IMG/VR virus record: IMGVR_UViG_3300032291_003067
Location: 1-41,884 of that record
Origin: a virus
Length of the DNA stretch: 41,884 nt
Strand: one strand, 5' to 3'
The position numbers and the translations under genes are program-made. Shown in pieces: positions 12,922 through 38,715 of this stretch (position 1 is its first letter; every line of letters begins with the position of its first letter). The notes beneath the pieces are model-generated. The model saw only the letters and a program-made list of their open reading frames with translations. It ran no database searches and was not told where the DNA came from.

Positions 12922-12930
12922 TGTCCTTTC
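12922..12930 (+). promoter_or_regulatory. Late element 1 (TGTCCTTTC)
   Basis: First of six intergenic copies of this word in plus orientation. Here it lies in TAATCCTGTCCTTTCCC, 15 bp behind a stop codon and 32 bp before the ATG at 12962. It marks the start of the tailspike and lysis unit. Confidence 0.55.
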
Positions 12931-12961
12931 CCTCGCATAAATAATCTACCAATTTACACCC

Positions 12962-13612
12962 ATGAACCAGTGGGTGCAGTTTGATTCCTTCCCAAAAGGT
13001 CCGGTCACTACCGGTCAGATCTGCGCGGTGTATGGAGTTCCTGTGGACTGGATCGTTCAGTTCCCTGAATTCAACCCGCAAACCCAATACCTCCAGGGGG
13101 ATATCATCCTGGGCTACCAAAAGACCTGGCTTCGGTTCATGCCTGCTGCCACCAGGAAGGTTTTCCGGGAGGCCAGCAAAACACTGAAGGGCAGACCCTA
13201 CTGGGATCAAAGCCTGGGCTTCAAAATCAATTGGCAGTCTGGCCTTACTCATATCAAAGCTTCCAACATGGTCAATCACCGGTGGGTGTTCATGGTCAAG
13301 GAAGCCGGCACTGGTCAGTACTACGTGATTGGCAAGCCTCCAGTGGGTGCTGAGATTGCTATTTCCTATACCAATGAGCAAGGAACGGTTACTGAGTTTT
13401 CAGCTTCATTTCAGGCTTTGCACAGAGCGCCATTGTACACAGGCGTTAACAGGTCCGCAATCAGGGTTACAGATGCAGCGGGAAACTTTATTACCGATGG
13501 GGATGGCAACTATGTTGGATCTATTGGCGCTCCAGGAAGTTGGCCTGCGATACCAGCGGGAACAGATTTCTCTTCAATTGACTTTACCGGGAACAATTTT
13601 ATTGTGATATGA
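12962..13612 (+). CDS. Putative tail-fibre-associated structural protein
   Basis: This 216-aa protein is the first gene of late unit 1. It has a mixed first half (WVQFDSFPKGPVTTGQICAV) and a Gly/Asp-rich beta C-terminus (AAGNFITDGDGNYVGSIGAP, SIDFTGNNFIVI) typical of phage fibre accessories. It has no signal peptide. It overlaps a 56-aa gene (ATGA) and precedes the tailspike, so a role at the tail tip or spike attachment is likely. No named family. Confidence 0.5.
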   Translation: MNQWVQFDSFPKGPVTTGQICAVYGVPVDWIVQFPEFNPQTQYLQGDIILGYQKTWLRFMPAATRKVFREASKTLKGRPYWDQSLGFKINWQSGLTHIKASNMVNHRWVFMVKEAGTGQYYVIGKPPVGAEIAISYTNEQGTVTEFSASFQALHRAPLYTGVNRSAIRVTDAAGNFITDGDGNYVGSIGAPGSWPAIPAGTDFSSIDFTGNNFIVI

Positions 13613-13779
13613 GTGAAAAGCTGATAAATCAATACGACGAAACTATTCCGGCGGAAACAGACTATGTGCTGATTGATGACGGATCAGGTTTTTATGAAAA
13701 GTCGCAGACAAAAAATCTTCCCGGTGGAGACGGCGACGGCACCGGTGGTGGTGGTGGTGCGCTTGAGGGTGTCCTATAA
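13609..13779 (+). CDS. Small tail-fibre accessory protein (56 aa)
   Basis: A 56-aa frame starts with ATG 13609, overlapping the previous stop (ATGA), and ends 10 bp before the tailspike start. It opens MSEKLINQYDETIPAETDYV and carries LIDDGSGFYEKSQTKNL and a poly-Gly tail (GGDGDGTGGGGG). This matches small proteins encoded ahead of phage fibres that combine an xxLPPATxxxxDxxLxxD-like segment with a flexible end. The overlaps support real translation. Confidence 0.6.
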   Translation: MSEKLINQYDETIPAETDYVLIDDGSGFYEKSQTKNLPGGDGDGTGGGGGALEGVL

Positions 13780-13789
13780 ATTTTTAAGT

Positions 13790-16700
13790 ATGGCAGAAAT
13801 TAATATATCGCTAAAGAGAATGACCAATACTGGCGGGCTGTATCGCAAGCTCGATCTTTCTGCTACCGTAGATGGTGTTTGGAAATTCCTTGATTCTGAC
13901 GGATCTAAGGTTGAGATAGTAGACAGGAAAGCCCCCTACATAGCAAGGCTTGGCGGCGTGCTACCTGGATCAGATATGACCACACGGGTGCAAAATATTG
14001 TCAATCATGCCGATGTAAAGGAAATAGTATTCGATAGCGGAGATATCACAATTAATGGCACTTTAACGATACCGGACGGTAAAACTATTCACTTTAAGAA
14101 TGCCGCACAACTTACAGGTACTGGTAATATTATTGTTTACCTAAAAGATATAAAGTACAACATAGCAAGGGTTTTTTCCGATAGTTTTACAGTTAAGATA
14201 CTTTCTCATGGTGAGCAGGTTCACCCTGAAATCTTTGGAGCTAAAGCAAACGATCCGGCATATGATAACGCACCTGCTTTTAACAAGCTGTTCAGGTCCG
14301 TTTATGGCAGCATTGAGAATATGAATGCCGGGCAATACGGCAATTTATCATTGAGAATTAAACTTGCGGGTAGTTATTTTATTCAGGATACGATTTACGT
14401 TAGAAACATCACCCCGATAATGGAGGGTAATGGTCACATTGATGGTACTAACTTTATCGCCGGTGGTGATTTGACCTCAAGAAGGACAGTTGCATCAATT
14501 GCTACCGGAGGGCACTATACAATTAACCAGTACAGAATTTACAGCCCACCAGTAGGGAATTTGACGATCACCATTCCCACAATGACACCCGGCACAGTGG
14601 TGCATTACGCCATTGCAGAGCGTGAATTTTCATTGGCTAGAACGGCAATCAAAAGAGGGTCGTTCACCTATACTGGACCTGATTGTGTTATCTACAGGGA
14701 TTACAGATCAAGCTACTCAGAGAGCATTCACCTTTCTACGACCTATGTACCCTACGCATCAATAGACTTCGAATACCTCTCTACTTACCCCCTTGCGTAT
14801 CAAACAGGGTTGATAAATCAGGTAGGCCATCAGGTGACAAGTTTAAAGTTCAGCGGCTTAGAGTTTCTTTCAGCTGCCGCGAATAACAATACGCACACGG
14901 TAGCTGATACGCCCGCTTACGGTCCAGTTCCTCCTTACGATGTCAAGGTAACAATGACGGGCGTTTCAAACGGTACTACTCTTTATTGCACGCGAATAAA
15001 AGACGGCATTGTACAGGGTTCGGCAACATTCACATACAGCGGCGCGGATAGTGTAATACACACAAACTACACTCCGGGGATTCTTAGTGCTACCAAATCC
15101 CTTAACGAGTGGTTTGTTATCGGTACAACGGCAGCGGTGGCAGAGGTTGTAAATGGCAAATGGGCTATCTATGGTAACTCGGTTGGAATTATCAATAGTG
15201 TTGCATCATCTACAATTACATCGTGGAAATTTGACAACGACAACCAGATGTCCAAGTTCTTTTGGCAGGACAAGGCGATGTTCAACATCTCAGGGTGCGA
15301 TAACCTTGAAATGTCTGATCTGTGTTTTAGGGCACCCGCATCCTTGAATCCATTGCAAAAACCGTATGCAGCAATTGCAGCGTATGTAGACATAACCAAT
15401 CCGAATGTTTCTGTAAAGACACAGAGGCAGCATCTTTACAAAAGCCTTCAATTTAAAAACTTTACTTATCCTGATAGTGGGCAATGGACAAAGTATCGTA
15501 GCTTCTTCGCAAACTTCGCTTGTGATGGCCCTTATGCTAACAACGATTTTTTCAAATTCTATCATTGCAATTTCAGTCAAGCTCAATATTGTTACTTCAA
15601 CGACAACCAACAGGCAGTAGCGCATACTCTTTCCGAATGTTATTGGAACCAGTGCGATTGGGCTATAGCTAACATGGCTGGAATGGTGGCCGTAGATAAG
15701 TGCTTTCCAGAATTTGGCGTATCATCAGGGTTTATCAAAGTAATAGGCACTTCAAATGAATCTGTCAACTATCAGATTTATGACTTTAACACCGAAGGCA
15801 TATCTGGATGGTTCTTTATATATGCTTGGGGCGGCGCAGCGGTGAACGTTGATCTGTACAGTCCTCAGCCTGTATTTTGGCGGGATTTTGGATTGACAAA
15901 GGAGTTCTACTTGCTTGCTGCGTCACAGATTTCGCAGGTTAAATTTGTAAGCCACGGCGGTAACTGGATCATGGGCAACGGCGGCGGTGCTGGTCTTGTA
16001 AAGATCCGTGCGGGATCGTCAAACCTCTCAGGCACGTGTTCAGTGTCTATCAGAAACGCGTTCTTCTATCCCAACAGTCTTCCCAGCCTTGCAATTGAGA
16101 TATTGAACTCAAGTTTTATGCTTGAGCTAAATACCCATTCCGGGTCATACGCGCAGGGTTACTCGGGGCACATTTTCCGTGGTTGGGTTTCACAGTTTCA
16201 AGAAGTGTGGACTAAGTACGCGGCTATAGATCCCAGCAACAATGGATACCTGAACTTGTTTACATTGATGTCTAATGAAAATAGTAACCTGCAATCCAAT
16301 TCAACAGGCACTACATGGCTTGATATTGGGCAGTCAGGAAGGCTTGCAACCCTTGGATTTGCATCAGAGTCATTTTGGGCAAGGATAGCAGCAGCAACAG
16401 TGGGCGAAATTACATATGCAAACAAAATACCTGGAGGCAAAAATATTATTGGCCTCGGAATTAAGAATGCTCAACAGGGTTTAGTATTCGATACATCATC
16501 AGATATAACAACATTGCTAACCTATGGATACTGCTATGTGGGTGATTCATACGATTATAAAAAATTCGGTGGATTTGACGCTTACAACGTAGGTTCTAAG
16601 AATGACAAAGCGTTGACTGATGTTAGGTATGATTCCGATGAAGATTTGGTTCTTACAGGCGTGTATAAAACACCATCAGGCACAACGGGAACGCTGGCAT

Positions 16701-17026
16701 CCGGTGGTAACCTTACTGCATCTGGCAACTTGTTTGGTAACAACTCGGATTCCATCAACCAGATTATAGGTCGTAAAATATGGATCACCAGTGGGGCTTA
16801 TGAAGGCTTGCAAGGCACTGTTACAGGTAGGGTGAGCAGTTCGGTTATTACAACTTCATTTTCAGGTATTACAATAACAACTCCTTTTTCTTTCGAGGTA
16901 GAGGGTAAGTTTACTGCTTCACCCGGTTCAGGTATCATGAGTTTTCTTATTTCGTTTCACTTTTCAGAGGCTAACAGAAACGGTGTTGCTGTTCAGTATC
17001 TGGAAGCAAACATTCCGCAGCTATGA
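13790..17026 (+). CDS. Tailspike with pectate-lyase-like beta-helix
   Basis: I place the start at ATG 13790 (MAEINISLKRMTNTGGLYRK), since the upstream in-frame part overlaps the 56-aa gene. The product is 1078 aa. An N-terminal virion-binding region (1-75) is followed by strands typical of a parallel beta-helix (GDITINGTLTIPDGKTIHF), the segment HPEIFGAKANDPAYDNAPAF, and long repeats of short strands. HPEIFGA-KAND-xxD-NAPAF is the usual opening of pectate-lyase superfamily spikes. It probably binds and may depolymerise surface polysaccharide. A C-terminal segment (about 965-1045) carries an IxSGAYEGLQGTV module that resembles modules in the fibre at 21820. Confidence 0.75.
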   Translation: MAEINISLKRMTNTGGLYRKLDLSATVDGVWKFLDSDGSKVEIVDRKAPYIARLGGVLPGSDMTTRVQNIVNHADVKEIVFDSGDITINGTLTIPDGKTIHFKNAAQLTGTGNIIVYLKDIKYNIARVFSDSFTVKILSHGEQVHPEIFGAKANDPAYDNAPAFNKLFRSVYGSIENMNAGQYGNLSLRIKLAGSYFIQDTIYVRNITPIMEGNGHIDGTNFIAGGDLTSRRTVASIATGGHYTINQYRIYSPPVGNLTITIPTMTPGTVVHYAIAEREFSLARTAIKRGSFTYTGPDCVIYRDYRSSYSESIHLSTTYVPYASIDFEYLSTYPLAYQTGLINQVGHQVTSLKFSGLEFLSAAANNNTHTVADTPAYGPVPPYDVKVTMTGVSNGTTLYCTRIKDGIVQGSATFTYSGADSVIHTNYTPGILSATKSLNEWFVIGTTAAVAEVVNGKWAIYGNSVGIINSVASSTITSWKFDNDNQMSKFFWQDKAMFNISGCDNLEMSDLCFRAPASLNPLQKPYAAIAAYVDITNPNVSVKTQRQHLYKSLQFKNFTYPDSGQWTKYRSFFANFACDGPYANNDFFKFYHCNFSQAQYCYFNDNQQAVAHTLSECYWNQCDWAIANMAGMVAVDKCFPEFGVSSGFIKVIGTSNESVNYQIYDFNTEGISGWFFIYAWGGAAVNVDLYSPQPVFWRDFGLTKEFYLLAASQISQVKFVSHGGNWIMGNGGGAGLVKIRAGSSNLSGTCSVSIRNAFFYPNSLPSLAIEILNSSFMLELNTHSGSYAQGYSGHIFRGWVSQFQEVWTKYAAIDPSNNGYLNLFTLMSNENSNLQSNSTGTTWLDIGQSGRLATLGFASESFWARIAAATVGEITYANKIPGGKNIIGLGIKNAQQGLVFDTSSDITTLLTYGYCYVGDSYDYKKFGGFDAYNVGSKNDKALTDVRYDSDEDLVLTGVYKTPSGTTGTLASGGNLTASGNLFGNNSDSINQIIGRKIWITSGAYEGLQGTVTGRVSSSVITTSFSGITITTPFSFEVEGKFTASPGSGIMSFLISFHFSEANRNGVAVQYLEANIPQL

Positions 17027-18315
17027 TAAAAGTATACAATACGGTTTATTCTTTGCGTAGGGTTAAAACCTATGAATCAGGAGTGTTGTACAATGTAGTT
17101 GATTTAAACGCTTTCGGATTCTGGGTGTTTGATCCATCTGATACCACGAGTCCGCATGATGGGCTAAACATTGTCGTTAACAATTCGGGGCAGAGGATTA
17201 AAAGACAAATTTTTCTACTAGCCTTGCTTCCTCCTAGTCTTACCGCAACTTCAGGCGCGTTTGGTGATACCGTGAATCTTTCTTGGTCGCCCAGGCCTAC
17301 ATCTGGTGGATATAACGTACAGTTTTCTACTGACAACATAAACTGGACGGGCATAGGTGGAACGATAGCAGCGGGAACTACAACATACGCCCATACGGGA
17401 AGAACGAATGGCGTTTTGTATTATTACAGGGTAAAGGCTTTAGCGGCAGCAGGGTATCAGGAAAGTGAGTGGGCAACAGCCTCCGTGACCACTACTATCA
17501 CCCTATTGCTTGATACCACCAACTCAGCAGGCGCATGGAGCGTTACCCGGAAACTCAGGACAAGTTATGCAGGTTCGGCTTTTCGTGTCCAGCGAACTTC
17601 GGACAACACCCAACAGGATATTGGATTCAGTGGATTGTATGTTGATGAATCAGCTTTATCAACATTTGCGGCGGGTACAGATGCCCATGTGGTTACAATC
17701 TACGATCAAACCGGAAATGGAAGAAATGCCACAGTTGCCGCATTGACTAACGCGCCTAAGATCGTCAACGGCGGCACGCTTCTTAAAGAAGGTGGTAAGT
17801 TGGTAATGGAATTTGACGGCACAAATGATTATTTCGATGTGGTTGATTACGCATTAGGCACTACCTTCTTTATATTCGCGGTCGCTGGAAAGGTATCTAC
17901 TAATACAGTGAATACTATTTATGGTCGCGGTACGACAAATTCCAATTACTCTCGCGACGGTATGTTATTCCTCGATACGGCAACAAATTTACTAAATATT
18001 CAAAGGGTGGATAGCGCCGGAAATATTGGTATGGCTGGGCAAAGTGCTACGCTCGCCAATATGCAACTGCTTTCTGGTTCGTTGGTCAGTGCAAATTTGA
18101 AGGCATCCGTAAACGCTGTTGAGAGTTCTAATGTTTTTTCAACTGTTACAGGTAGCGTTGACCCACAAACAAGTATTGGTGCAGTTGGCGATGGCGCAGC
18201 AATCAAATACTTTTTCAAAGGTAGAATGTCAGAGATTGTTGTTTACACGACAAATCAAAGCTCTAACGTATCTGCTATCAACACTAACATTAACACACAC
18301 TATACAATTTACTAA
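17023..18315 (+). CDS. Fn3 plus arabinofuranosidase-B-like lectin adhesin
   Basis: The 430-aa protein has a fibronectin type III domain at about residues 68-155 (LSWSPRPTSGGYNVQFSTD, YYYRVKALAAAG). A jelly-roll domain follows from about 165, with RKLRTSYAGSAFRVQR, DIGFSGLYVDESAL, TIYDQTGNGRNAT and VMEFDGTNDYF. This matches the concanavalin-A-like domain of alpha-L-arabinofuranosidase B (LamG-like). It overlaps the tailspike stop by 4 bp. It is likely a receptor-binding or glycan-cleaving tail protein. Whether it keeps enzyme activity is unclear. Confidence 0.7.
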   Translation: MIKVYNTVYSLRRVKTYESGVLYNVVDLNAFGFWVFDPSDTTSPHDGLNIVVNNSGQRIKRQIFLLALLPPSLTATSGAFGDTVNLSWSPRPTSGGYNVQFSTDNINWTGIGGTIAAGTTTYAHTGRTNGVLYYYRVKALAAAGYQESEWATASVTTTITLLLDTTNSAGAWSVTRKLRTSYAGSAFRVQRTSDNTQQDIGFSGLYVDESALSTFAAGTDAHVVTIYDQTGNGRNATVAALTNAPKIVNGGTLLKEGGKLVMEFDGTNDYFDVVDYALGTTFFIFAVAGKVSTNTVNTIYGRGTTNSNYSRDGMLFLDTATNLLNIQRVDSAGNIGMAGQSATLANMQLLSGSLVSANLKASVNAVESSNVFSTVTGSVDPQTSIGAVGDGAAIKYFFKGRMSEIVVYTTNQSSNVSAINTNINTHYTIY

Positions 18316-18488
18316 TGGCTAGGAACACAATAGTAGCAATAATTCTAGGTGTATTCACGGTGATACTAATAACGATGGCAACAATGGACATTATCACTGG
18401 TGAGGTGTTCGCTACTTCTTTAACAGGCATTACCAGTGTAGCTACAATTATAATTGGAATAACTAGTAAGGATAATCAAGACAAATGA
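18315..18488 (+). CDS. Small two-helix membrane protein, holin candidate (57 aa)
   Basis: The 57-aa frame starts with the ATG that shares its A with the previous stop (18313-18315). It contains two hydrophobic segments (residues 5-22, TIVAIILGVFTVILITMA, and about 33-50) and a short charged tail (SKDNQDK). Size and topology fit a small class II holin or an accessory. It overlaps the next gene by 4 bp and sits at the start of the lysis block. Confidence 0.55.
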   Translation: MARNTIVAIILGVFTVILITMATMDIITGEVFATSLTGITSVATIIIGITSKDNQDK

Positions 18489-18790
18489 CATTCAGAATGA
18501 GCGATGATAACATCAGTTTTACGTTTGGTAGTTTGCTAGCTGCTATCCCTGCTATTAGCTGGCTGTGGCCATTGCAGCTTCATGCTATGGATGCCGGTAG
18601 CATGGCAACTATTTGGATTATCAAGATATTCGGCACAATCATTCTGGGATTCTTGGGTGGTCTTACGGGTATGTTTGGGAAAGACGTTTACAGACTTATA
18701 AAAACAAAACTACGTGAAAATAAAAATTTGGGCAGTAATCGCGGCGGCGGCGGTGATTCTAGTGATAGCATTGACGATCAGAGGTTGTAA
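18485..18790 (+). CDS. Membrane protein of the lysis block (101 aa)
   Basis: The 101-aa product has two hydrophobic segments (about 17-34 and 44-64, TIWIIKIFGTIILGFLGGLT) and a Gly/Ser/Asp-rich C-terminus. It overlaps the upstream small membrane protein by 4 bp and the spanin-like gene by 77 bp in another frame, which explains the unusual composition of the tail. A holin or holin partner is likely by position and topology; no family match was recognised. Confidence 0.55.
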   Translation: MTFRMSDDNISFTFGSLLAAIPAISWLWPLQLHAMDAGSMATIWIIKIFGTIILGFLGGLTGMFGKDVYRLIKTKLRENKNLGSNRGGGGDSSDSIDDQRL

Positions 18791-19253: not shown

Positions 19254-19271
19254 CACGTCAAAATCAACACT

Positions 19272-21222: not shown

Positions 21223-21288
21223 AACAGTTCCTGTGAAAACGGGCCATAAAGCTACTGCTGTTGCCTAGTAGTTAGTCTGTTGGTTTGG

Positions 21289-21316
21289 GCCGGGCCTTTT
21301 TAGGCCTGGCTTTTTT
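21289..21316 (+). terminator. Terminator of the lysis unit
   Basis: GCCGGGCC (21289-21296) pairs with GGCCTGGC (21303-21310), including one G-T pair, with a 6-nt loop and six T behind it. It lies 67 bp after the esterase stop. Late element 2 begins directly in its T-run. Confidence 0.85.
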
Positions 21317-21324
21317 GTCCTTTC
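21316..21324 (+). promoter_or_regulatory. Late element 2 (TGTCCTTTC)
   Basis: The word follows immediately behind a strong intrinsic terminator, so any transcription of the next gene (ATG 21381) must restart here. This position is one of the best arguments that the word is part of a promoter. Confidence 0.6.
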
Positions 21325-21380
21325 CATACAGGGAAATCATGATGAATTTGAGGCGTGGTTTACAATAAACATAATCAATT

Positions 21381-21809
21381 ATGCCAGACAATGTAGCGTA
21401 CACACCGGGCGCAGGTGCAACAATAGCAGCCGATGACATAGGTGGAGTATTATACCAGCGAGTTAAGCCAGTAACAGGTGAAGATGGTGAAGCCGTTGAT
21501 GTAAGTCAACAAAACCCAATGCCGATAGCAGCATACGGCGAATTGTTGGAAGCCATTGAAGCTATGCGCATGGCAATTAACTCCCTTACCAGAACAATAG
21601 GACTTGCACAGGTAAACCCGTTAACAGGCCGTATGTTAGTTGATGGGTCAGGTGTGACTCAGCCTGTAAACGGCAGTCTTTCCAGTATAACACAAGTTTC
21701 TTTGGTAGCTAACACCCAACAAGTAGGCGGACAAAATGCCAACTCGTTTGTTCCTTCATTTGAAAGGATGACAGCAGATAACTTAAGGAGAAATATAGTC
21801 ACAACATAA
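21381..21809 (+). CDS. Virion-associated small structural protein (142 aa)
   Basis: The 142-aa product opens PDNVAYTPGAGATIAADDIG and continues VLYQRVKPVTGEDGEAVDVS, followed by a helix and a beta-rich end. This GxGxxIAxDDIGGVxxQRVKxxxGxDG pattern is common in phage proteins encoded with tail fibres. It is the first gene of late unit 2 and precedes a kelch-like fibre gene by 10 bp. A role in fibre attachment or trimerisation is inferred. Confidence 0.65.
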   Translation: MPDNVAYTPGAGATIAADDIGGVLYQRVKPVTGEDGEAVDVSQQNPMPIAAYGELLEAIEAMRMAINSLTRTIGLAQVNPLTGRMLVDGSGVTQPVNGSLSSITQVSLVANTQQVGGQNANSFVPSFERMTADNLRRNIVTT

Positions 21810-21819
21810 AAAAAATAGT

Positions 21820-24277: not shown

Positions 24278-24279
24278 CA

Positions 24280-24723: not shown

Positions 24724-24732
24724 TGTCCTTTC
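24724..24732 (+). promoter_or_regulatory. Late element 3 (TGTCCTTTC)
   Basis: The context TAATCCTGTCCTTTCCC is the same as in element 1. It starts directly at the stop of the previous gene and lies 32 bp before the ATG at 24765, the same distance as in element 1. It opens the capsid unit. Confidence 0.55.
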
Positions 24733-24764
24733 CCTTTTTTTTAATCCTTGCAATCTTTGATCCA

Positions 24765-26069
24765 ATGATTCAGATTCTCAGGCAATTGTTGAACACTAAA
24801 TGGCTCATGGAGCCCACTGCTGCAAAGCAATGGAGCGCGGTGGCCATACAGTTTTTGAATGGGGATCTGTCACCAGAAGCTTTCACTGAGCGTAAGCAGG
24901 AGATCATGGCCGGTGTGCCTGTAAAATGGGATGCCAGGAATGCATATAAAAGCTTCCTGCGTGCAGATGAAAGTGGCAACTACGCGCCCAAGGGTCCAGT
25001 GCAGATCGTGATGATCGATGGCCCCATCATGAAGTATGACTACTGTGGTGCTGCCGGTACCATGACCATGGGTCAGGCAATCATGGCGGCCAATCAGGAT
25101 GATTCAGTTCAGTCCATTGTGCTTTACATGGATTCACCTGGTGGATCTGTGGATGGCACTGAAGCTCTGGCAAACATTGTCAAGGGATCTCAGAAGCCGG
25201 TGGTTGCATATGTCAACAGCAAGATGGCCAGTGCTGCATACTGGATCGGTTCAGGAGCCAAGATGATCGTGAGTGATGGGTCCAACAAAGGGTTCAACGC
25301 TACCATCGGTTCCATCGGTACCATGGCCAGCTGGATTGATCGCAAAGGGATGTATGAGAGGCAAGGCGCTGTGGTGCATGAGGTGTACGCCACTGAATCC
25401 ACAGACAAGAACGGTGACTTCCATAAGATGAATCAGGGCGATTACACGCAGCTGATTCAGGAGGTTCTGGATCCACTCAATGAAACTTTCCTGAGTGCGG
25501 TGAAGGAGAACAGATCCGGGAAGTTGAACTTGGAAAAAGAGAACGTGCTGAGCGGGAAAACGTACAATGCCAAAGAGGCCATGAAGTTTGGCCTGATCGA
25601 TAAGATAGGAACCTTTGAGATGGCAATCAAGGAATCCCTTACCCTAGCCAAAAAACAAAAAAAGATGGAACAATCAGTGACCGCATTTAATCGCACCCTC
25701 ACAACAGCGAAGGCTGAAGCTTTTGAAGTTGTGGAGAACGGGTTTCTTCTGACCGAAGATAACCTGAACAATATTGAAGCTCAACTCGGCAGTCTGGAAA
25801 CTGCTGCTGCTGAAGCTGGCACCATTGCCACCGATGCTCAAACGGCATTGCAAGCTGTCAATGAGCAGAACGCTCAGCTCACTGCAGACCTAGCCACTGC
25901 AAACAGCCGTATTGCAGAACTGGAAGCGCAGGTGGAGAAGATGAACCCGCTGACGCTTGCTCCGGTAAACACCAACAAAGCTGCTGATAGCTTTTCGGAT
26001 AACCCTGAGGATAAATACCTCACCAGCTATGACCTTGAGAAGAAGGCTCAGCTGGCCAGAATCAAGTAA
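24765..26069 (+). CDS. S49-type prohead protease fused to scaffold
   Basis: The 434-aa protein has an S49/SppA-like serine protease domain at about residues 40-295: VLYMDSPGGSVDGTEALA, then NSKMASAAYWIGSGA with Ser156 as nucleophile, then TIGSIGTMASW, and YATESTDKN with Lys215 in the position of the general base. The last 130 residues are a coiled-coil domain (LQAVNEQNAQLTADLATAN) ending in a polar tail, as in protease-scaffold fusions. It directly precedes the major capsid gene. It should shape and mature the prohead. Confidence 0.85.
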   Translation: MIQILRQLLNTKWLMEPTAAKQWSAVAIQFLNGDLSPEAFTERKQEIMAGVPVKWDARNAYKSFLRADESGNYAPKGPVQIVMIDGPIMKYDYCGAAGTMTMGQAIMAANQDDSVQSIVLYMDSPGGSVDGTEALANIVKGSQKPVVAYVNSKMASAAYWIGSGAKMIVSDGSNKGFNATIGSIGTMASWIDRKGMYERQGAVVHEVYATESTDKNGDFHKMNQGDYTQLIQEVLDPLNETFLSAVKENRSGKLNLEKENVLSGKTYNAKEAMKFGLIDKIGTFEMAIKESLTLAKKQKKMEQSVTAFNRTLTTAKAEAFEVVENGFLLTEDNLNNIEAQLGSLETAAAEAGTIATDAQTALQAVNEQNAQLTADLATANSRIAELEAQVEKMNPLTLAPVNTNKAADSFSDNPEDKYLTSYDLEKKAQLARIK

Positions 26070-26993: not shown

Positions 26994-27006
26994 ACCAATC
27001 AATCAT

Positions 27007-27028
27007 AAGGGTGCCTGCGGGCACCCTT
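27007..27028 (+). terminator. Hairpin behind the capsid gene
   Basis: AAGGGTGCC and GGCACCCTT form a perfect 9-bp stem with a TGCG loop, 13 bp behind the capsid stop. Only three T follow, so it may be a leaky terminator or an mRNA-stabilising hairpin. A nearly identical copy occurs at 27886-27907. Confidence 0.6.
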
Positions 27029-27041
27029 TCAAACTACTAAC

Positions 27042-27302: not shown

Positions 27303-27326
27303 TTCTTACCATTAAAACTTAATACA

Positions 27327-27872: not shown

Positions 27873-27885
27873 ACCAATCAAGCAT

Positions 27886-27907
27886 AAGGGTGCCTACGGG
27901 CACCCTT
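27886..27907 (+). terminator. Second copy of the capsid-type hairpin
   Basis: AAGGGTGCC and GGCACCCTT again form a 9-bp stem, here with a TACG loop, 14 bp behind the tail-tube stop. The surrounding sequence from the stop codon to the next ATGGCAAAAGCAA is repeated from 26991-27055 with few changes. Confidence 0.6.
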
Positions 27908-27923
27908 TCAAACTACTACTACA

Positions 27924-28211: not shown

Positions 28212-28382
28212 ATGAGAGCACTCAGCTTAGAGGAACAACAGCTCCTGGATCATATCCGGGAACACAGGGAAGAGCTTCAACGTACCCTGTTTTACCTTGT
28301 ACTGAACCACCCGAAAGATCTGCCAAGTCCACCTGAGCCTATCTACAGCCTGTACCTGTTTATTGGTGAGATGAAAAACTAA
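28212..28382 (+). CDS. Small protein before the terminator (56 aa)
   Basis: A 56-codon frame (ATG 28212 to TAA 28382) encodes MRALSLEEQQLLDHIREHRE followed by a hydrophobic helix segment (LFYLVLNHP) and a Pro-rich link. It ends exactly where the strong terminator at 28381-28409 begins, as expected of a last gene in a unit. It sits where tail chaperone genes often lie. Function unknown. Confidence 0.5.
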   Translation: MRALSLEEQQLLDHIREHREELQRTLFYLVLNHPKDLPSPPEPIYSLYLFIGEMKN

Positions 28383-28409
28383 AAAAGCCCCTTCCCTCGG
28401 GGCTTTTTT
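28381..28409 (+). terminator. Strong terminator of the capsid unit
   Basis: AAAAAAGCCCC and GGGGCTTTTTT flank a 7-nt loop, giving a stem of up to 11 bp and a T6 tail. Late element 4 starts one base after it (28411). Confidence 0.9.
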
Positions 28410-28410
28410 G

Positions 28411-28419
28411 TGTCCTTTC
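28411..28419 (+). promoter_or_regulatory. Late element 4 (TGTCCTTTC)
   Basis: The word sits directly behind a strong terminator, so the tape-measure unit needs its own promoter here. A TATCATTG, one base off TANNTTTG, occurs at 28431-28438, but a matching sequence at the same distance is not found in the other copies. Confidence 0.6.
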
Positions 28420-28450
28420 CATCACGGTTTTATCATTGCAACTTGCTACC

Positions 28451-28834
28451 ATGGACATCAATTACGATGTGGCGAATGCAAGAATTGTGGGATGGGCACA
28501 GAGTACCAAAGGTGACCTTGTGACTGAGATCCGCACCCTGGGGATCAAGCACAGCGATAAATCGAAATCTCCGAAGGCGGCGGAAAGATCTCTCACCGTC
28601 CGCACTCCCAAAAAAGACAAGCTCATATCCCGCGTATCATATGCCATTCCCCGGCACATGATCTACGTGCATAAAGGTGTGGGCCGTGGCACCACCATTG
28701 ACCAGGTAGGATCCACCAACCGCGTTGCAAAGCCCTGGTTCAATCCAGTCATTGAGCGTAGGATTGATGAGCTGGCAGACATCGTGGCTGAAGAGATAGG
28801 TTCAGAAATCATTAATAAACTTTTGATCAGGTAA
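28451..28834 (+). CDS. HK97 gp10-like tail completion protein
   Basis: I use ATG 28451 (MDINYDVANARIVGW); an in-frame TTG at 28436 is less likely. The 127-aa product contains YAIPRHMIYVHKGVGRG, then a long gap, then KPWFNPVIERRIDELADIV, the order seen in HK97 gp10-like neck and tail proteins (basic middle, PWFxPxxxxxxxxL end). It shares one base with the tape-measure start. Confidence 0.65.
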   Translation: MDINYDVANARIVGWAQSTKGDLVTEIRTLGIKHSDKSKSPKAAERSLTVRTPKKDKLISRVSYAIPRHMIYVHKGVGRGTTIDQVGSTNRVAKPWFNPVIERRIDELADIVAEEIGSEIINKLLIR

Positions 28835-31503: not shown

Positions 31504-31511
31504 AAAATTCC

Positions 31512-31520
31512 TGTCCTTTC
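31512..31520 (+). promoter_or_regulatory. Late element 5 (TGTCCTTTC)
   Basis: The context is AATTCCTGTCCTTTCAT, 8 bp behind the tape-measure stop and 33 bp before the GTG at 31553. It opens the portal and distal-tail unit. Confidence 0.55.
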
Positions 31521-31552
31521 ATTGGGCAGTATAAAGATGAAAATTCGCACCA

Positions 31553-31852
31553 GTGCAAACAGTTGAACTATATGAAGTAATCAATCACATCGACAGCGGC
31601 AGGCCGTTCAATATGACCTATGTCACCGCTGACAAAAAGAAGGGTACCGGTGGCCAGATCAAAGTTGTCAAGAACTGGGTTCGCTGCGATCTGGCCGCCA
31701 TGCCTGAAATCATTCTCAGGCGTAATAAGGTTGATAAGATGCCCAGGCATCAGGAGCACAAAACAAAGAACATCATGAACCCTGCAACCAGGGATATCAA
31801 AAAGGTTCACATACGGTTGATCTGTGAATTTAATGGGAGGAGAGTAGTATGA
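31553..31852 (+). CDS. Hypothetical protein before the portal (99 aa)
   Basis: Translation starts with GTG at 31553 (VELYEVINHIDSGRPFNMTY). The 99-aa product is basic and beta-rich, with VTADKKKGTGGQIKVVKNWV and a Lys/Arg/His-rich second half. No family recognised. It overlaps the portal gene by 4 bp, so it likely serves head or connector assembly. Confidence 0.5.
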   Translation: MQTVELYEVINHIDSGRPFNMTYVTADKKKGTGGQIKVVKNWVRCDLAAMPEIILRRNKVDKMPRHQEHKTKNIMNPATRDIKKVHIRLICEFNGRRVV

Positions 31853-33186
31853 TCATCAGTAATGGAATTGGTTATTCCACAAAGGGACGCACGGCGTTCA
31901 TCACTGGCTTGTCTGGCAATCCCAATCAGAAGGATGCCACGCAGCCCATTTATGAAGACCTGACCAGTACTAACCTTTGGGCCAACTGGGGTGCAGACAA
32001 TCAGTTGCCCATCACCATGACCAAAACCATTGAAGGTTGCGGTGTGCTGATGTCAGCCATTGATGGCAAGGCAAGGTTTGGTTTGGGACGCGGTGTGAAG
32101 CCTTTCCGGATCGTGGAGACAAAGCCAGATGGAAGTGAAGTGTTAGAGCCAGTGTATAATACAGAAGTGGAAGACTGGCTGGAAGAAAGCAATATGTTCT
32201 TCCAATCCTTTGCGCTCTTCAAAGACATGATTGGTTTTAGCAACTACCATGGCCGGTTTAGGTTCAATAATGCAGGGGATAAGATTGGTCTGTTTGTTCG
32301 CGATGATGTGAGTGAGTTCAGGTACGAAAAAGAGAAGGACGGGAAGATTACCAAAACATTTCTTTGCGCGGACTGGTCAAAGACCCCAAGCACATCCGAT
32401 AAATCACTTATTGAAACTCCACTATTGCCTTGGATTGGCCCATCCCAATACCTATCCAGCATAAAACCAGAACAGCGCAAAGCCGCGCAGTTTGCCATCA
32501 CCGGCAGGCTACCTGGTTGGAACCGTCACTACTATTCCATGCCTACCTGGTATGCTGCAAAGAAGTGGGTGGATATCGCAATGGGTGTTCCTGATATGAA
32601 GGCTGCTATGTTTGAAAACAACATCAGGCTGAAGTATGTGGTGATCGTCTATGATGAATACTGGAACCTGGTGTATGGTAGTCAGTGGGCAGCGTTCACC
32701 CCTGAAGAAAAGCAGCAGAAGCAGGAAGAGCTTTTCCAGTCCATCGATGACTGGCTGGTAGGTTCGCAGAATGCATACAAGAGCGTGTACATCCCTGGAA
32801 CGCTTGATAAGGTATCAGGCAAGGGACTGCAATACATTGAGATCAAACCCATCGATGATACTACCAAGCAGGGTGAACTTTTACCAGACAGCGCCGCCGC
32901 AAATAGTGAGATCCTCTTTGCCCTGATGATGAATCCGGCACTGATGGGAGCCGACACGCCAGGCGGCCCTTATAGCGGCGGTGCTGGTTCTGGTTCTAAC
33001 ATCCGTGAAGCTGCACTGGTGCAGGTGATGATACAGGAGTTTGAGCGTCAGCAGATCAGTCGAATCCTGAACATCGTGAAGAAGGTAAATGGCTGGCCAG
33101 CTGACATTGTGTGGAGGTTCCCAGGACTGGTTCTTACCACACTCGATACAGGTAAATCCACCAAAGAGGTACAAACGGGAGGTTAA
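31849..33186 (+). CDS. Portal protein (putative)
   Basis: The 445-aa product shows the usual portal pattern near its end: NSEILFALMMNPALMGADTP, then GAGSGSNIREAALVQVMIQE, then RQQISRILNIV, which resembles the LxIPPxLxG and later helix of HK97-type portals. The middle has YYSMPTWYAAKKWVDIAMGV and SQWAAFTPEEKQQKQ. The length fits the family. In most tailed phages the portal follows the terminase; here it lies behind the tape measure, about 8 kb ahead of the terminase. The stop is followed by one base and the next start. Confidence 0.75.
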   Translation: MIISNGIGYSTKGRTAFITGLSGNPNQKDATQPIYEDLTSTNLWANWGADNQLPITMTKTIEGCGVLMSAIDGKARFGLGRGVKPFRIVETKPDGSEVLEPVYNTEVEDWLEESNMFFQSFALFKDMIGFSNYHGRFRFNNAGDKIGLFVRDDVSEFRYEKEKDGKITKTFLCADWSKTPSTSDKSLIETPLLPWIGPSQYLSSIKPEQRKAAQFAITGRLPGWNRHYYSMPTWYAAKKWVDIAMGVPDMKAAMFENNIRLKYVVIVYDEYWNLVYGSQWAAFTPEEKQQKQEELFQSIDDWLVGSQNAYKSVYIPGTLDKVSGKGLQYIEIKPIDDTTKQGELLPDSAAANSEILFALMMNPALMGADTPGGPYSGGAGSGSNIREAALVQVMIQEFERQQISRILNIVKKVNGWPADIVWRFPGLVLTTLDTGKSTKEVQTGG

Positions 33187-33187
33187 G

Positions 33188-34159
33188 ATGCCACTGATCA
33201 CCACTATTCAACAGGTAAAGCAGGTGCTGAAGATCAGCAACCTCAACAATACATCCACGCTTCCGGATATTGAATCCGCGGAAGAGAAGTACATCATTCC
33301 CAAAATCGGGAAAGCCTTATACAACGAGCTACTAACGGCGTATCAGGGAAATACGCTCACCACCATCCAAAAAGCGTTGCTGCTGAAGGTGCAAAAGCCT
33401 TTGGCAGCTTTCGCCTATTTTGATGGACTGGCTATCCAGCACGCGATGATCACTGACACCGGTGTACGCAAAATTGCCACAGATGCGATGCCAACAGCGT
33501 ACCGGTGGGAATTTGATGGAGTGAAAGATTCGCTGGCAAACATGGGCCACCAGGGTATGGAATCCCTGCTTCAGTTCCTGGAAGACAACAGTGCCAGTTT
33601 TCCGAGCTGGACCAGTTCCGAGGCCTATGCCGTCCGGAATAAGTTTCTGATCAAAACAGCACTGGACTTCTCAGACCAGTACAGAATAGATCAGCCTCAC
33701 CGCACTTACAGCTCATTGCTGAGTGTCATGGCCGATGTGGAAGACCTCTACATCAAGCCAACCATTGGTGAGGCTTTTTTTGCTGAACTAAAAGCAGATC
33801 CAGCGCCCACAGCTGATGAAAAGCAGGTGATCGCAACCCTGAAGAAAGCCATCGCGCAGCTCTGCATTCACCATAGCCTGGAGAAATCCCTGGTGAAGAT
33901 CACTGAGGCTGGTGTGTCAATTTATGACCGCTATGCGGACAGGGGAGACAGTACCGCGTCGCAGCCTACCGCTGATCAGATTCAGTTTGTGTTAAATGCC
34001 ACCAAGCGGGATGGTCAGTCTTACCTGGTGAAGGCAAAAACCTATCTGGATCAGAAAGCAAGTGGATCTGTGTTTGCAACCTATTTCGGCAGTTCCTACT
34101 ACTCCGCACCAAAGGAGTATGAGGATCCCAATAAGAACAGGAAAATCTTCAGATTTTGA
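33188..34159 (+). CDS. Connector-type protein (DUF6712-like)
   Basis: I use ATG 33188, one base behind the portal stop, because the upstream in-frame sequence overlaps the portal gene. The 323-aa product opens MPLITTIQQVKQVLKISNLN and continues DIESAEEKYIIPKIGKALYN, the pattern of a Bacteroidota phage family (DUF6712, as I recall). A second copy-like segment starts near residue 185 (MADVEDLYIKPTIGEAFFAE), so the protein appears to hold a repeated domain. It follows the portal and probably belongs to the head-tail joint. Confidence 0.6.
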   Translation: MPLITTIQQVKQVLKISNLNNTSTLPDIESAEEKYIIPKIGKALYNELLTAYQGNTLTTIQKALLLKVQKPLAAFAYFDGLAIQHAMITDTGVRKIATDAMPTAYRWEFDGVKDSLANMGHQGMESLLQFLEDNSASFPSWTSSEAYAVRNKFLIKTALDFSDQYRIDQPHRTYSSLLSVMADVEDLYIKPTIGEAFFAELKADPAPTADEKQVIATLKKAIAQLCIHHSLEKSLVKITEAGVSIYDRYADRGDSTASQPTADQIQFVLNATKRDGQSYLVKAKTYLDQKASGSVFATYFGSSYYSAPKEYEDPNKNRKIFRF

Positions 34160-34947
34160 AGCAGCTGCATTTCAGAAAATGGACCTATGACGTTCCAGAA
34201 TCATGGAATGAGATGGATGGCAAGAGGCTTACCCAGGTGATGCAGGTCATTGAGTCCGGCATGGATGACGAGAAGGGGATCCTTTCTCTCTTCCGCGCAC
34301 TCGCTGATATCCCCTGGTTTCAGTTTTATCTCATGAGGGAACGGGCGCTGATGGATACAGCTGTGGAGTGCACAGAGTTTCTGTTTGGCGAGAACACGCT
34401 GACCCGTAACCTGATTCCATCATACCGGGGCTTGTACGGACCTGCAGACGGGCTGAGCAATATGAAGATGGCTGAGTTCTGTTTTTCTGAATACCGGTAC
34501 ATGCAGTATGTGAAAGAGTCCACGCCTGAAAATCTGGATCTCTTCATTGCCGTGATCTACCGCGAAGGCAAGAACATGTTCTATGACTACGTGCGCAATC
34601 CTGATGGGGACGTGAGAAAGAAATTCAATGATGCTATCTCCCCACTGCTGGCAATGAAGATCCGCAAATGGCCGAACCACGTTAAAAGGGCGATAGTTCG
34701 CTTTTACGAGGGTGCCAGGGACGCGAAGGTGAAGGCCAACGACAAGGTATTTGGATCCAGTGACGGGCAGGAAAGTTTGTATGGGCTATGGTCTGTCATG
34801 AGATCCGTAGCAAAGGAGGGAACCTTTGGTGATTTTGACCGCGTGAATGAGCAATATGTGGACACCATCCTCATGGATCTGAACGAGGTGGTGGCTGAAG
34901 CAGAGCAGATTGAAATGGATCGTAATAAAGTAACCGTTAGCAGATGA
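34156..34947 (+). CDS. Tail or connector protein of unknown function (263 aa)
   Basis: The likely start is TTG at 34156 in the stop of the previous gene (TTGA); an in-frame ATG at 34213 is the alternative. The 263-aa product is helical and rich in aromatics (WTYDVPESWNEMDGKRL, FSEYRYMQYVKESTPENLDL, KKFNDAISPLLAMKIRKWPN). I recognise no family with certainty; similar proteins occur in the tail modules of Bacteroidota phages. It overlaps the next gene by 4 bp. Confidence 0.5.
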   Translation: MKQLHFRKWTYDVPESWNEMDGKRLTQVMQVIESGMDDEKGILSLFRALADIPWFQFYLMRERALMDTAVECTEFLFGENTLTRNLIPSYRGLYGPADGLSNMKMAEFCFSEYRYMQYVKESTPENLDLFIAVIYREGKNMFYDYVRNPDGDVRKKFNDAISPLLAMKIRKWPNHVKRAIVRFYEGARDAKVKANDKVFGSSDGQESLYGLWSVMRSVAKEGTFGDFDRVNEQYVDTILMDLNEVVAEAEQIEMDRNKVTVSR

Positions 34948-35429
34948 CATATTTTGAAAATATCCAGGCCTATATCCAGGAGCTGTGCCAGAAGCATAAG
35001 AAGCTTCTGCACGGCGAAGGCGGTACCGCATTCATGCCTATGACCGTGGCAGATGAAAGTGGAGCCATCTATCCAGACATCAAGCCCACCTATGTCAAGG
35101 TGTTGGATGCATCGTCTTCGGTTCGTGAAGGAGATATGGTGTGGGTGATCCAGCTGGCTGTGATGCAGAACGTGAGCATGAACGCCACCGTTGGCCGTGA
35201 GCAGGCCATGGAGATCGCGTCCAGGGAAACACAGGAGATCCTGTATGATTTCATTGCAAGGATCCGCAACCAGGATGATGAGAGTTGCTCCTTTATGACC
35301 AGGCTTTTGGATGGCAACATTGAACCGGTTGCCCTCAGCGATCAGAGTGCGGTGGGCTGGCAGTATTTTCTTCGATTCAATACGCAGGGACCGGATTATA
35401 ACGCAAATTCATGGGAGGATGATGTATGA
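34944..35429 (+). CDS. Putative tail completion protein (161 aa)
   Basis: The 161-aa product is alpha/beta (MTYFENIQAYIQELCQKHKK, DMVWVIQLAVMQNVSMNATV, FNTQGPDYNANSWEDD). The short, coupled position between connector-type and large tail genes suggests a neck or tail-end component. It overlaps both neighbours by 4 bp. No family recognised. Confidence 0.5.
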   Translation: MTYFENIQAYIQELCQKHKKLLHGEGGTAFMPMTVADESGAIYPDIKPTYVKVLDASSSVREGDMVWVIQLAVMQNVSMNATVGREQAMEIASRETQEILYDFIARIRNQDDESCSFMTRLLDGNIEPVALSDQSAVGWQYFLRFNTQGPDYNANSWEDDV

Positions 35430-36868
35430 TAACACTGTTGGAGAGGCCCTATGAGGTTTGTTTTTCGCGCAACCCTGTGGTGTACAAGTTGCAAACGAAC
35501 ACTGTGCTGTCAACCCAAGGGTTGAAGATTGATGTGCGGTTGATGTTCCGCCGCTTTGGTGCCAATAATTTCATTCAGCAGATTGCGATATCCTTGGTGC
35601 CGGATAGTTCCGGTATTACCGAGATCGATTTCAGCAAGGTGCTGGACAGCCTGGTTGACTACTCTTTGCCGGCGATCACCACGGCTGTTCCGGAAAGGGC
35701 ATTTGACCAGGTTGGTGAATTTTATATCGGTTACCGGGAGGTCACTACAGCAACTCCCAACCCGGCATGGACCACGGACGGTAGCACCATCCGGGTAGTG
35801 AAGGGAGGCCTGCCGCATGAGAAATGGCAAGGCCCGAATTACTTTATCAACAACAACGGTGTGCTCACCTGGCAGAAAACTGGCAGGCTCATTGGGCCCA
35901 CTGAAAAAGCATGGTACTCATACCTGCACTTGGGCACAAATAACCAGGCCAATATGGCCGCCAAAGTGAACTTATACTTCACCGATGGTACGGTACAACT
36001 CAATGCGGTGACGATCAATTTACCGGACACCGCAGTGCCCAAGTACGGGATTTATCGCATACCGGTGGGTGCGCAGCTCGGGCTGAAAGATGTTCAGCCG
36101 GCAAAGACCATCCACTACTATACGGTGCGTATTGCAGCAAACACCACCAACCTGACCGTTGAGTTCAAGTACATCGTTGACTACCGTGGCAACTATTCAA
36201 AGACCACGCTTTACTACATCAATTCCCTGGGTGGGCTGGACTCTATGCGCCTGCTGGGTGAGATGGGTAAAAAGGTAGCCTATGACCGTCAGTTTTCTGA
36301 GAAAACCCTTGGAGGGAAGTATTACTCCACCACGGAGATCGCGGCCATGCAGGAGAACATCAAGAACGTTGAACAGGTTACCTATTCCGGATCCGTTGGA
36401 CTGATGGATGATGAGGATCAGTATGACCGGACCCGGGATCTGATGATCTCCACCAAAGTAATGATCATCAAGTTCAACCGATGGGCACCGGTACTGGTGA
36501 CCAACAACTCTGTTGATATGGGTACCAACAGTGACCCGATCAAAGATTTTCCGGTTGAGTTCACCCCGGGATATGTCAATGAGTCCTATGCACCTGATAT
36601 CCGCATTGGTGATCTCCCGGTATGCCCGCTGATCACCAGCATTAGTGCGGTTGCGGGTACGCTCAGCTGGGGACCATCCAGCGCATCTCATGTGCAGTAT
36701 GTGGTAGAGCTGTGGGATGTGCTTCAAACGGTGAAGCAGCAGACCATTCTTACCACAAGTAATTCGTACACGTTTACAGACTTTGGGTTGATCGGCTATG
36801 CCAGGGTAAAAGCCATCTGTGGATTTTCTGAAACGCCATTCACTGACTTTGTATACATCGCAGTATGA
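35426..36868 (+). CDS. Distal tail protein with C-terminal Fn3-like domain
   Basis: The 480-aa product is mainly beta (YEVCFSRNPVVYKLQTNTVL, KIDVRLMFRRFGANNFIQQI, TTLYYINSLGGLDSMRLLGE). Residues about 395-480 form a fibronectin-type domain (PLITSISAVAGTLSWGPSSA, YVVELWDVL, ARVKAICGFSETPFTDFVYI). It overlaps both neighbours by 4 bp. The layout suits a tail-tip or hub protein with an adhesive end. Proteins of this type are frequent in Bacteroidota siphophages; an exact name is not justified. Confidence 0.6.
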   Translation: MITLLERPYEVCFSRNPVVYKLQTNTVLSTQGLKIDVRLMFRRFGANNFIQQIAISLVPDSSGITEIDFSKVLDSLVDYSLPAITTAVPERAFDQVGEFYIGYREVTTATPNPAWTTDGSTIRVVKGGLPHEKWQGPNYFINNNGVLTWQKTGRLIGPTEKAWYSYLHLGTNNQANMAAKVNLYFTDGTVQLNAVTINLPDTAVPKYGIYRIPVGAQLGLKDVQPAKTIHYYTVRIAANTTNLTVEFKYIVDYRGNYSKTTLYYINSLGGLDSMRLLGEMGKKVAYDRQFSEKTLGGKYYSTTEIAAMQENIKNVEQVTYSGSVGLMDDEDQYDRTRDLMISTKVMIIKFNRWAPVLVTNNSVDMGTNSDPIKDFPVEFTPGYVNESYAPDIRIGDLPVCPLITSISAVAGTLSWGPSSASHVQYVVELWDVLQTVKQQTILTTSNSYTFTDFGLIGYARVKAICGFSETPFTDFVYIAV

Positions 36869-38703
36869 TAGGGATAAAGAAGAGCGGAGAGTATTTGGAT
36901 TTGCAGCCTGGTACCAGGATACAGAGGGAGCGCAGTTCCCCAATTTTTTTGGAGCAAACGGAAAGCGGCAAGGATGCGATCCCGGGTGAGGTGTCTTACC
37001 CTTTCACGCTTCCATTGAGTGATAAAAACCTCAGGCTGTTGGGATGGCCGGATCAGCTGCCGGTGAATAAAGTGCTGCAGCACGATGTCATCCTCGAGGA
37101 TGCTGGTATGCAGCTCAGCCAGGGTAAGCTGGTGATCAACAGCGTGACCGCTCACCTCAACAAAAGCAATGTAGGCAACATTGATTGCCACATCCTTTCC
37201 AATATCAGTGAGTTTTGGCAGCGCGTGAAGGATAAGAAGCTTAGTGATCTATCCCTTGGTGGTGAGAGATCCTTTGCATGGGCAGGATATGATCTTACCA
37301 CTCCTGGCTTCTGGAAGCATGCGCACGACACCTGGGCTTACAATGACAGCGATGATGGTGACTATGTTTTCAGTCCCATACTTTGCAAAAACTATAAGGG
37401 TGAAGATGAGTTAACCTGGATAAATGGCTGGGAGGTGCACAGTGGGCAGATTCAGCTTGCCAGGGAGAAAAACTATTACTGCCTTTGCCCTCATGTATTT
37501 GTTTCATACATCATCAAGCAGATATTCATTGAGCATGGCTATACTGTCACCGGTGATCTGCTGAATGATTCAGACTTCAAGCAAATTTGCTTTGAAAGCT
37601 ACCGCTCTGTGAATTGGGCCATCCCACAATTGACTGGCCCATTGATTGAGCCGGTTATTACCGTTACGCCACAAAACCCTGTAAAGATTCGATTGGCTGA
37701 GCACGTCCCACCGGTGATGACCATTGGCGAACTATTTGTGGAGCTGCAGAAGCTTTTGCCGATCACATTTTTGATCAATGACAGGTCAAAGAGCTGCCGC
37801 ATCATTTGGCTGAGTGAGCTATCCGGTACGGGATCAACAGACCGCACTGAAAGATTCTCTCCACAGATCTCACTCAGTTTTGAAACATCAAGCATAGGAC
37901 CGAAGATCATTGGCTTTGACCGCGCGAGGGATGAAATCTCCATGGAAGCCACTGAAGAGTACATTGATATGGGATCTGTGAATTCAATTGCAGATTTACC
38001 CGCGCCATCGTCAGCTGTGCATCAGCACATGTACTATGTGAGATACCTAAACGCATATTATGCCTGTAACAACTACATCGGCGTTGCAGGTGGACCATTT
38101 GCAATTTATCTGTGGGTTGTTGTTGGCGATAATGTTGGTGGATACTTCCCGCAAGGGTTTACAGACACCTACAATTCAACCATTGAAGTGTCGCTGATTC
38201 GGCAGGGTTTGATAATCAAGGATTACTACGGATCAGGTGATGATCTGGTGGGATACTTCCCGCGCACAGATCGGCTGGGCAACTGGTTTGCTTCTGGCAA
38301 CAGCAGGGATTTTGAGCCATGGCCGGCGAGGGTGTTTTTTTACCGCGGATCACAACCGTTTTCAGCTGGTGGCACTAAGCCACTTGCCACCAATAGCATC
38401 TATAATTTTAATAGTTCATGGCCAATGACTTCCAGCCATTCCACGGTTGGCAACTGGTCACTATCTTACAAGGTTGGTACTGGCAACTTCGGATTGATTG
38501 ATCGGTTCTGGTCAAATTGGTTGCCATCCCTACAGATTAATGAACTGATCAAGGGCCGTCTATTCCTTAAATTCCATGAGTATCTGCAATGGGACTGGAA
38601 CAGTGTTCTGCTGCTTCGCAACACACCATACCTGGTGAAGAAAATCACTGAAGTGCTGCCGTACGAAGGGTACATTGATATCGAAGCCCAGCGCGTGCAG
38701 TAA
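36865..38703 (+). CDS. Tail tip or hub protein (612 aa)
   Basis: The 612-aa product begins MIGIKKSGEYLDLQPGTRIQ, then VSYPFTLPLSDKNLRLLGWP, and has many short strands with CPHVFVSYIIKQIFIEHGYT in the middle. The end is RNTPYLVKKITEVLPYEGYIDIEAQRV. I associate this layout with Bacteroidota phage distal-tail structural proteins. It is the last gene of late unit 5; its stop forms part of the TAATCC of late element 6. Confidence 0.55.
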   Translation: MIGIKKSGEYLDLQPGTRIQRERSSPIFLEQTESGKDAIPGEVSYPFTLPLSDKNLRLLGWPDQLPVNKVLQHDVILEDAGMQLSQGKLVINSVTAHLNKSNVGNIDCHILSNISEFWQRVKDKKLSDLSLGGERSFAWAGYDLTTPGFWKHAHDTWAYNDSDDGDYVFSPILCKNYKGEDELTWINGWEVHSGQIQLAREKNYYCLCPHVFVSYIIKQIFIEHGYTVTGDLLNDSDFKQICFESYRSVNWAIPQLTGPLIEPVITVTPQNPVKIRLAEHVPPVMTIGELFVELQKLLPITFLINDRSKSCRIIWLSELSGTGSTDRTERFSPQISLSFETSSIGPKIIGFDRARDEISMEATEEYIDMGSVNSIADLPAPSSAVHQHMYYVRYLNAYYACNNYIGVAGGPFAIYLWVVVGDNVGGYFPQGFTDTYNSTIEVSLIRQGLIIKDYYGSGDDLVGYFPRTDRLGNWFASGNSRDFEPWPARVFFYRGSQPFSAGGTKPLATNSIYNFNSSWPMTSSHSTVGNWSLSYKVGTGNFGLIDRFWSNWLPSLQINELIKGRLFLKFHEYLQWDWNSVLLLRNTPYLVKKITEVLPYEGYIDIEAQRVQ

Positions 38704-38706
38704 TCC

Positions 38707-38715
38707 TGTCCTTTC
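38707..38715 (+). promoter_or_regulatory. Late element 6 (TGTCCTTTC)
   Basis: The context is TAATCCTGTCCTTTCAA, starting at the stop codon of the previous gene. It lies 43 bp before ATG 38758 and opens the terminase unit. A 12-bp palindrome follows at 38719-38730. Confidence 0.55.

Follow-up and report, generated by a model that had tools for sequence, protein, structure and literature searches.

What turns on the late genes of a phage that carries the same nine-base word at the head of one late unit after another? The question is raised by a 41,884-nucleotide stretch of viral DNA (the window, taken here at its full length) that by its gene content belongs to a temperate siphophage of Bacteroidota type. 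Known phages gave no match to the window DNA as a whole; the relatives of its proteins are found in uncultured viral contigs, in prophages of Chitinophagaceae and, distantly, in cultured Bacteroidota phages. Lysogeny and early genes come first and include a CI-like gene on the minus strand, a primase and a protein with a DnaA C-terminal domain. The integrase, a large serine recombinase, follows, and then come the late genes, with an endolysin, head maturation protease, capsid, tape measure, portal and a terminase-like end.

The word, TGTCCTTTC, occurs six times in the window, at 12922, 21316, 24724, 28411, 31512 and 38707, always on the plus strand and never on the minus strand. Dinucleotide shuffling predicts 0.57 copies on average, the largest number in any shuffle was four, and none of 100 shuffles reached at least six. 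All six copies are intergenic, and thus confined to non-coding DNA, which makes up 5.8% of the window (the coding share is 94%); the word is absent from coding DNA rather than equally frequent there. These results reproduce every position in the preliminary description of this DNA, which had reported six intergenic plus-strand copies, three of them in a longer form. Exact copies of that longer form, TAATCCTGTCCTTTC, begin at 12916, 24718 and 38701; in the last two, the TAA doubles as stop codon for the gene upstream. Among open-licence PMC papers, TGTCCTTTC led only to papers with titles on unrelated subjects, and no paper was found for the related word TGTCCTTTT together with phage. A seventh TGTCCTTT (within TGTCCTTTG) is present at 116-124 on the plus strand, near the left end; its AnnTT is one base late, no clear gene lies behind it, and it is a chance copy or a remnant.

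The box is one half of a bipartite element. An AnnTT sequence lies exactly 20 bp behind every copy in the window (n=6), so that A is found at position 21 and T at positions 24 and 25 in all six; a fourth invariant column, at position 3, is at chance level. When six gene starts with similar offsets were drawn 20,000 times, 0.075% of the draws had three or more invariant columns within the first 29 positions. The claim in the preliminary description that the copies share no -7-like element downstream is refuted by this observation. When all exact TGTCCTTTC copies found in the window and in related viruses were aligned blind to the downstream sequence, A, T and T were each found at positions 21, 24 and 25 in 23 of the 24 distinct sites, and the roughly 19 bases between box and element showed no strong conservation. 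The motif search in related phages that had been suggested at the outset returned the same box and the same -7 element in phage and prophage relatives: these relatives and the window together provide 67 distinct TGTCCTT-type sites, and AnnTT stands at the exact 20-bp spacing in 59 of them, where base composition would predict about 2%, sites within one orthologous group not being independent of each other. Orthologous copies in G001-G007 keep the box and the -7 element and the spacer drifts; the copy at G004:18670, a box without the -7 element, is probably a recombination joint.

The downstream element is often AnnTTTG or AnnTTGC, the core of the sigma-A -7 box, which in Bacteroidota reads TAnnTTTG (PMC6847099, PMC7366714, PMC9723704). 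The A at -11 and the T residues at -8 and -7 of the Flavobacterium consensus are retained in 59/67 sites. T at -12, nearly invariant in that consensus (PMC6847099), is present in 17% of the phage sites, with C or G there in 72%, and positions -6 and -5 are a mixture of T and G; some copies, such as G239:11819, have a perfect TAnnTTTG. The host -33 TTTG is absent and TGTCCTTTC stands in its place, with TTTC at about -35 to -32. The loss of T-12 from most sites fits a promoter that depends on an activator.

The distance from the box to the gene is also informative. RNA synthesis in F. johnsoniae starts 4-5 nt behind the -7 box (PMC6847099), which places the predicted RNA start at position 32 or 33 behind the phage box, where it coincides with the start codon, so the mRNAs are probably leaderless. 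The preliminary description had given 31-33 bp between box and start codon in four copies; the gaps measure 31-32 bp, and it had overlooked that this constant register puts the predicted RNA start on the start codon itself. At late promoter 1 the box (12922-12930, predicted to cover about -40 to -32) is followed by the -7-like element CAATTTAC at 12950-12957, positions 20-27 behind the box, and by the ATG at 12962, the predicted RNA start, 32 bases behind the box. Late promoter 3 (box 24724-24732, AATCTTTG at 24752-24759) precedes the head maturation protease gene, whose ATG at 24765 begins 33 bases behind the box. The box of late promoter 4 (28411-28419) and its element CAACTTGC (28439-28446) lead after 32 bases to the ATG at 28451, and the TTG at 28436 in the mechanical list of open reading frames is probably not the real start of this gene. 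At late promoter 5 (box 31512-31520, AAAATTCG at 31540-31547), which precedes a 99-aa gene and then the portal gene, a GTG at 31553 lies 33 bases behind the box. At these four promoters RNA is predicted to start at the start codon or within 1-2 bases of it.

The remaining two promoters are predicted not to produce leaderless mRNA. Late promoter 2 (box 21316-21324, GAATTTGA at 21344-21351) has its ATG at 21381, 57 bases behind the box, giving a predicted leader of about 25 nt; late promoter 6, that of the terminase unit (box 38707-38715, CATATTGC at 38735-38742), has its ATG at 38758, 43 bases behind the box, with a predicted leader of about 11 nt. The spacer of this last promoter contains a palindrome, TGTCCGGACA (38720-38729), made of two facing TGTCC halves. 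It is the only one in the window. G001-G007 have it at the orthologous place, and similar palindromes are present in G239 and G078. Its role may be that of an operator adjusting the level of terminase expression, or the regulator that would bind the box may recognise it as a second site. Promoters 2 and 4 stand directly behind intrinsic terminators, as had been pointed out before: RNA folding at 21287-21312 gives -20.2 kcal/mol (z -4.4) and is followed by a T run, and that at 28380-28410 gives -16.6 kcal/mol (z -4.9), both on the plus strand.

The same register is seen among the relatives. Taking as start codon the first possible one of an open frame of at least 60 codons, it begins 31-34 bases behind the box in 44/59 sites, 32-33 bases in 39 and exactly 32 bases in 34, and the mRNAs of the 44 are, judging from this spacing, probably leaderless. 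Some cultured phages (laban6-1, 6H and BT-TP2) have a longer leader behind the same promoter, so leaderlessness is no part of the promoter itself. Host mRNAs differ in being rarely leaderless: leaderless or near-leaderless messages make up 3.7% (5' UTR below 10 nt) and 5.5% of those mapped in B. thetaiotaomicron and F. psychrophilum (PMC7366714, PMC9723704).

Which protein might read the box? The last gene of the early region (12374-12907, plus strand, GTG start) immediately precedes late promoter 1; it encodes 177 amino acids and ends 14 bp before the first box. Its product has no match in Pfam, NCBIfam, PHROG or PDB and belongs to a family without a name; family and fold libraries revealed no recognised DNA-binding or sigma-contact domain, and a fold search of its AlphaFold model (mean pLDDT 76, only moderate) against PDB returned nothing. 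Homologues occupy the same place in G004, G007 and G008; the G008 protein is 31% identical and its phage has four TGTCCTTTT boxes at the same spacing. In an all-against-all comparison of 14 phages the family had a member in each of the 13 motif phages whose sequence extends over the locus, which makes it as widespread as the capsid and protease genes, and in most phages the gene stands directly before the first box. The earlier statement that no known activator is visible holds in that no named one was found, but an unnamed candidate does lie immediately before the first copy. The integrase gene directly upstream of this candidate (10737-12314) encodes a large serine recombinase that is also DNA-invertase-like.

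That related phages share both the bipartite promoter and the unnamed protein points to a late-gene switch made by the phage. We consider it likely that the six copies are late promoters at which the host polymerase with sigma-A reads a weakened -7 box and a phage activator, most likely the product of 12374-12907, binds the 9-bp box. The earlier proposal that the copies open late transcription units is supported. RNA polymerase with the primary sigma factor (sigma-A, or sigma-ABfr) would read the -7 box 20 bp downstream; sigma-A is known to read AnnTT(T/G), and a promoter that lacks T-12 and the -33 TTTG would on established knowledge be weak by itself. The box, at about -40 to -32, would replace the usual weak -33 contact, and the 177-aa protein would bind it and recruit or re-aim sigma-A. 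Expression of the activator would then turn on the structural, capsid, tail, portal and terminase units together, transcription would restart behind the terminators, and four of the six promoters would start RNA at or near the start codon to give leaderless mRNA.

Distant homologues of the gene, and promoters of the same build, are present in cultured phages of Bacteroidota. Among viral models, one clear structural match to the model of the candidate activator was found, a protein of Polaribacter phage Leef_1 (E 2e-7) that from its length of 157 aa we take to be Leef1_39. This gene stands between the integrase and the late genes; the order integrase, regulator, late genes is thus found again in Leef_1. 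A profile built from 13 regulators finds Leef1_39 independently of the structure match (5e-13), together with laban6-1 gp42 (9e-10), proteins of MZ447863 (9e-10) and MT835542 (4e-8) and Ingeline1_41 (4e-7); a Porphyromonas prophage protein (0.0016) and 6H gp40 (0.009) match weakly. BT-TP2 gp8, whose E value of 0.19 is below significance, is assigned because of its position. Boxes of the form TGTCCTTT are present in Leef_1, Ingeline_1, BT-TP2, MZ447863 and MT835542, and the endings differ in laban6-1 (TGTCACAA) and 6H (TGTCTTAAA); in most cases AnnTT follows at a distance of 20 (or 19-21) bp. Taken alone, the 8-9-base words of Leef_1, Ingeline_1, laban6-1 and 6H exceed Markov expectation only moderately in number, and the case for these phages is made by strand, place and spacing rather than by word counts. 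TGTC is constant and the ending varies with the phage lineage, even between the two Flavobacterium phages 6H and laban6-1; such differing endings, each in a phage with a homologue, favour a reader that is borne by the phage and co-evolves with its box over one borne by the host. 6H gp40 and laban6-1 gp42, both from phages with TGTC-type late boxes, belong to phrog_21888, a family of unknown function which the window protein, whose box ends differently, does not match. The paper that describes Leef_1 and Ingeline_1 does not mention promoters.

MZ447863 (L022), a so-called Microcystis phage, has the promoters, with the regulator homologue about 3.6 kb before the first one. Its box is extended upstream to an exact TAACACGCTGTCCTTTT at 13088, 19632 and 28689, with a fourth, near-identical copy at 17597. 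Since promoters and proteins are of Bacteroidota-phage type, the assignment of Microcystis as host deserves to be checked.

The regulator gene was found in 10 of 296 Chitinophagaceae genomes, in prophage regions where the promoter follows behind the gene and then recurs downstream. At least three full promoters within 40 kb on one strand were present in 5/10 regulator-positive genomes (G021, G078, G217, G239 and G265) and in 0/286 negative ones, about 1e-8 by our own hypergeometric calculation. The full pattern otherwise gave scattered single matches across the 296 genomes, not above the reversed-pattern control, and host-wide use of the promoter was rejected on this count. A regulator-positive Limnovirga genome has two matches, one on C8 without a phage match and one on C6 that precedes a phage head gene within prophage DNA and so does not represent host use.

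Other readings of the box must be weighed against this one. The activator could be a different phage protein, with the 12374-12907 product merely travelling along: the genomes of Ingeline_1 and Leef_1 contain a LuxR-type regulator gene as well, and a second shared early gene could have been missed because the early regions of several relatives are incomplete. We regard this as unlikely, given that no further non-virion family is common to all 13 phages and that the primase and recombinase families reach 7/14. It is distinctly unlikely that a dedicated alternative sigma factor, of the phage or of the host ECF type, recognises both elements, with the box serving as -35 and AnnTTTG as -10. ECF promoters typically combine a strong upstream box with a weaker downstream one, as is seen here, but what lies downstream corresponds to the core of the sigma-A box, perfect in places, no sigma family (regions 2 and 4 included) was matched among those window proteins that were scanned, and the regulator model has no sigma-like match in PDB. 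Of the two factors allowed for in the preliminary description, a phage activator working with host sigma-A is thus the most likely, ahead of a sigma-like one.

A host regulator in place of a phage protein would accord with the restriction of all hosts to Bacteroidota and with the lack of a recognised DNA-binding domain in the phage protein, yet the pattern does not exceed its reversed control in most Chitinophagaceae genomes, it clusters only in prophages, and two Flavobacterium phages have boxes with different endings; this makes the proposal very improbable. Short oriented repeats can serve as recombination or packaging signals, and the word might be such a site or an mRNA leader element rather than part of a promoter. 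The fixed spacing to the -7 box and the start codon, the location behind terminators, the absence from coding DNA and the lack of any Rfam match render this extremely improbable.

The preferred reading, a phage activator acting with host sigma-A, invites comparison with the middle promoters of T4, where MotA and AsiA appropriate sigma and a MotA box takes the place of the -35 element (PMC2988021). In both cases a phage box of 9-10 bp stands in for the host -35 contact and the host -10 core is kept (here judged from sequence only), and a small phage activator, here a candidate, opens a whole gene class. However, the box of the window is centred near -36, 20 bp from the -7 core, whereas the MotA box is at -30; it serves late and not middle genes; and T-12 is mostly lost from window-type sites, where T4 middle promoters keep an excellent -10. 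The 12374-12907 product shows no MotA homology by Pfam, PHROG, PDB sequence or fold: the candidate activator is MotA-like in anatomy but no member of the MotA family. With Bacteroidota sigma-A promoters the elements share the AnnTT(T/G) core, the spacing to the upstream region and a start 4-5 nt behind the box, but they differ upstream, where the phages have a specific box of strong conservation and the hosts a -33 element that is weak or undetectable. Mu C and P2 Ogr are phage activators of several late promoters that are read by the host polymerase, and the proposed system resembles theirs in each of these respects; the binding positions are different and the proteins are unrelated as tested by family and fold libraries.

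These results yield a precise promoter grammar and a single candidate gene. Among open-licence PMC papers we found nothing on late promoters of Bacteroidota phages or on leaderless phage mRNAs, and no description of a late-gene switch for the common temperate Bacteroidota siphophages, isolates from Bacteroides, Polaribacter, Cellulophaga and Flavobacterium included. If the proposed mechanism is correct, a protein family that now lacks a function would receive one, and Bacteroidota would provide a further case of promoter takeover. The system would also supply prophage-specific expression parts for these bacteria and, for a phylum with few leaderless mRNAs and no Shine-Dalgarno sequences, a natural collection of highly expressed genes whose messages are probably leaderless. 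The chances seem to us evenly balanced that such phages form a phylum-wide family in which previously undescribed late activators seize sigma-A through TGTC-N5 boxes with lineage-divergent endings, and in which the late mRNAs of the Chitinophagaceae group are leaderless and escape their hosts' unusual leader rules.

Three further non-coding features of the window may be recorded. An operator region is suggested by an array of alternating TTGACA and CTGACA repeats at 2225-2310, which separates a divergent repressor-like gene (1814-2176, minus strand) from the first early gene. About 300 bp of non-coding DNA at 7284-7587, flanked by the primase gene and the gene for the DnaA C-terminal-domain protein (7588-8106), are dense in CTGACAG and TTTGTCAGGAA-type repeats on both strands and are a candidate replication origin with iterons. 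Finally, a near-identical intergenic pair at 26994-27041 and 27873-27923, each with a hairpin (GGGTGCC..GGCACCC) and then TTTCAAACTACTA, stands ahead of two genes in the capsid region, neither of which has a late box; these hairpins are possible attenuators or mRNA stabilisers.
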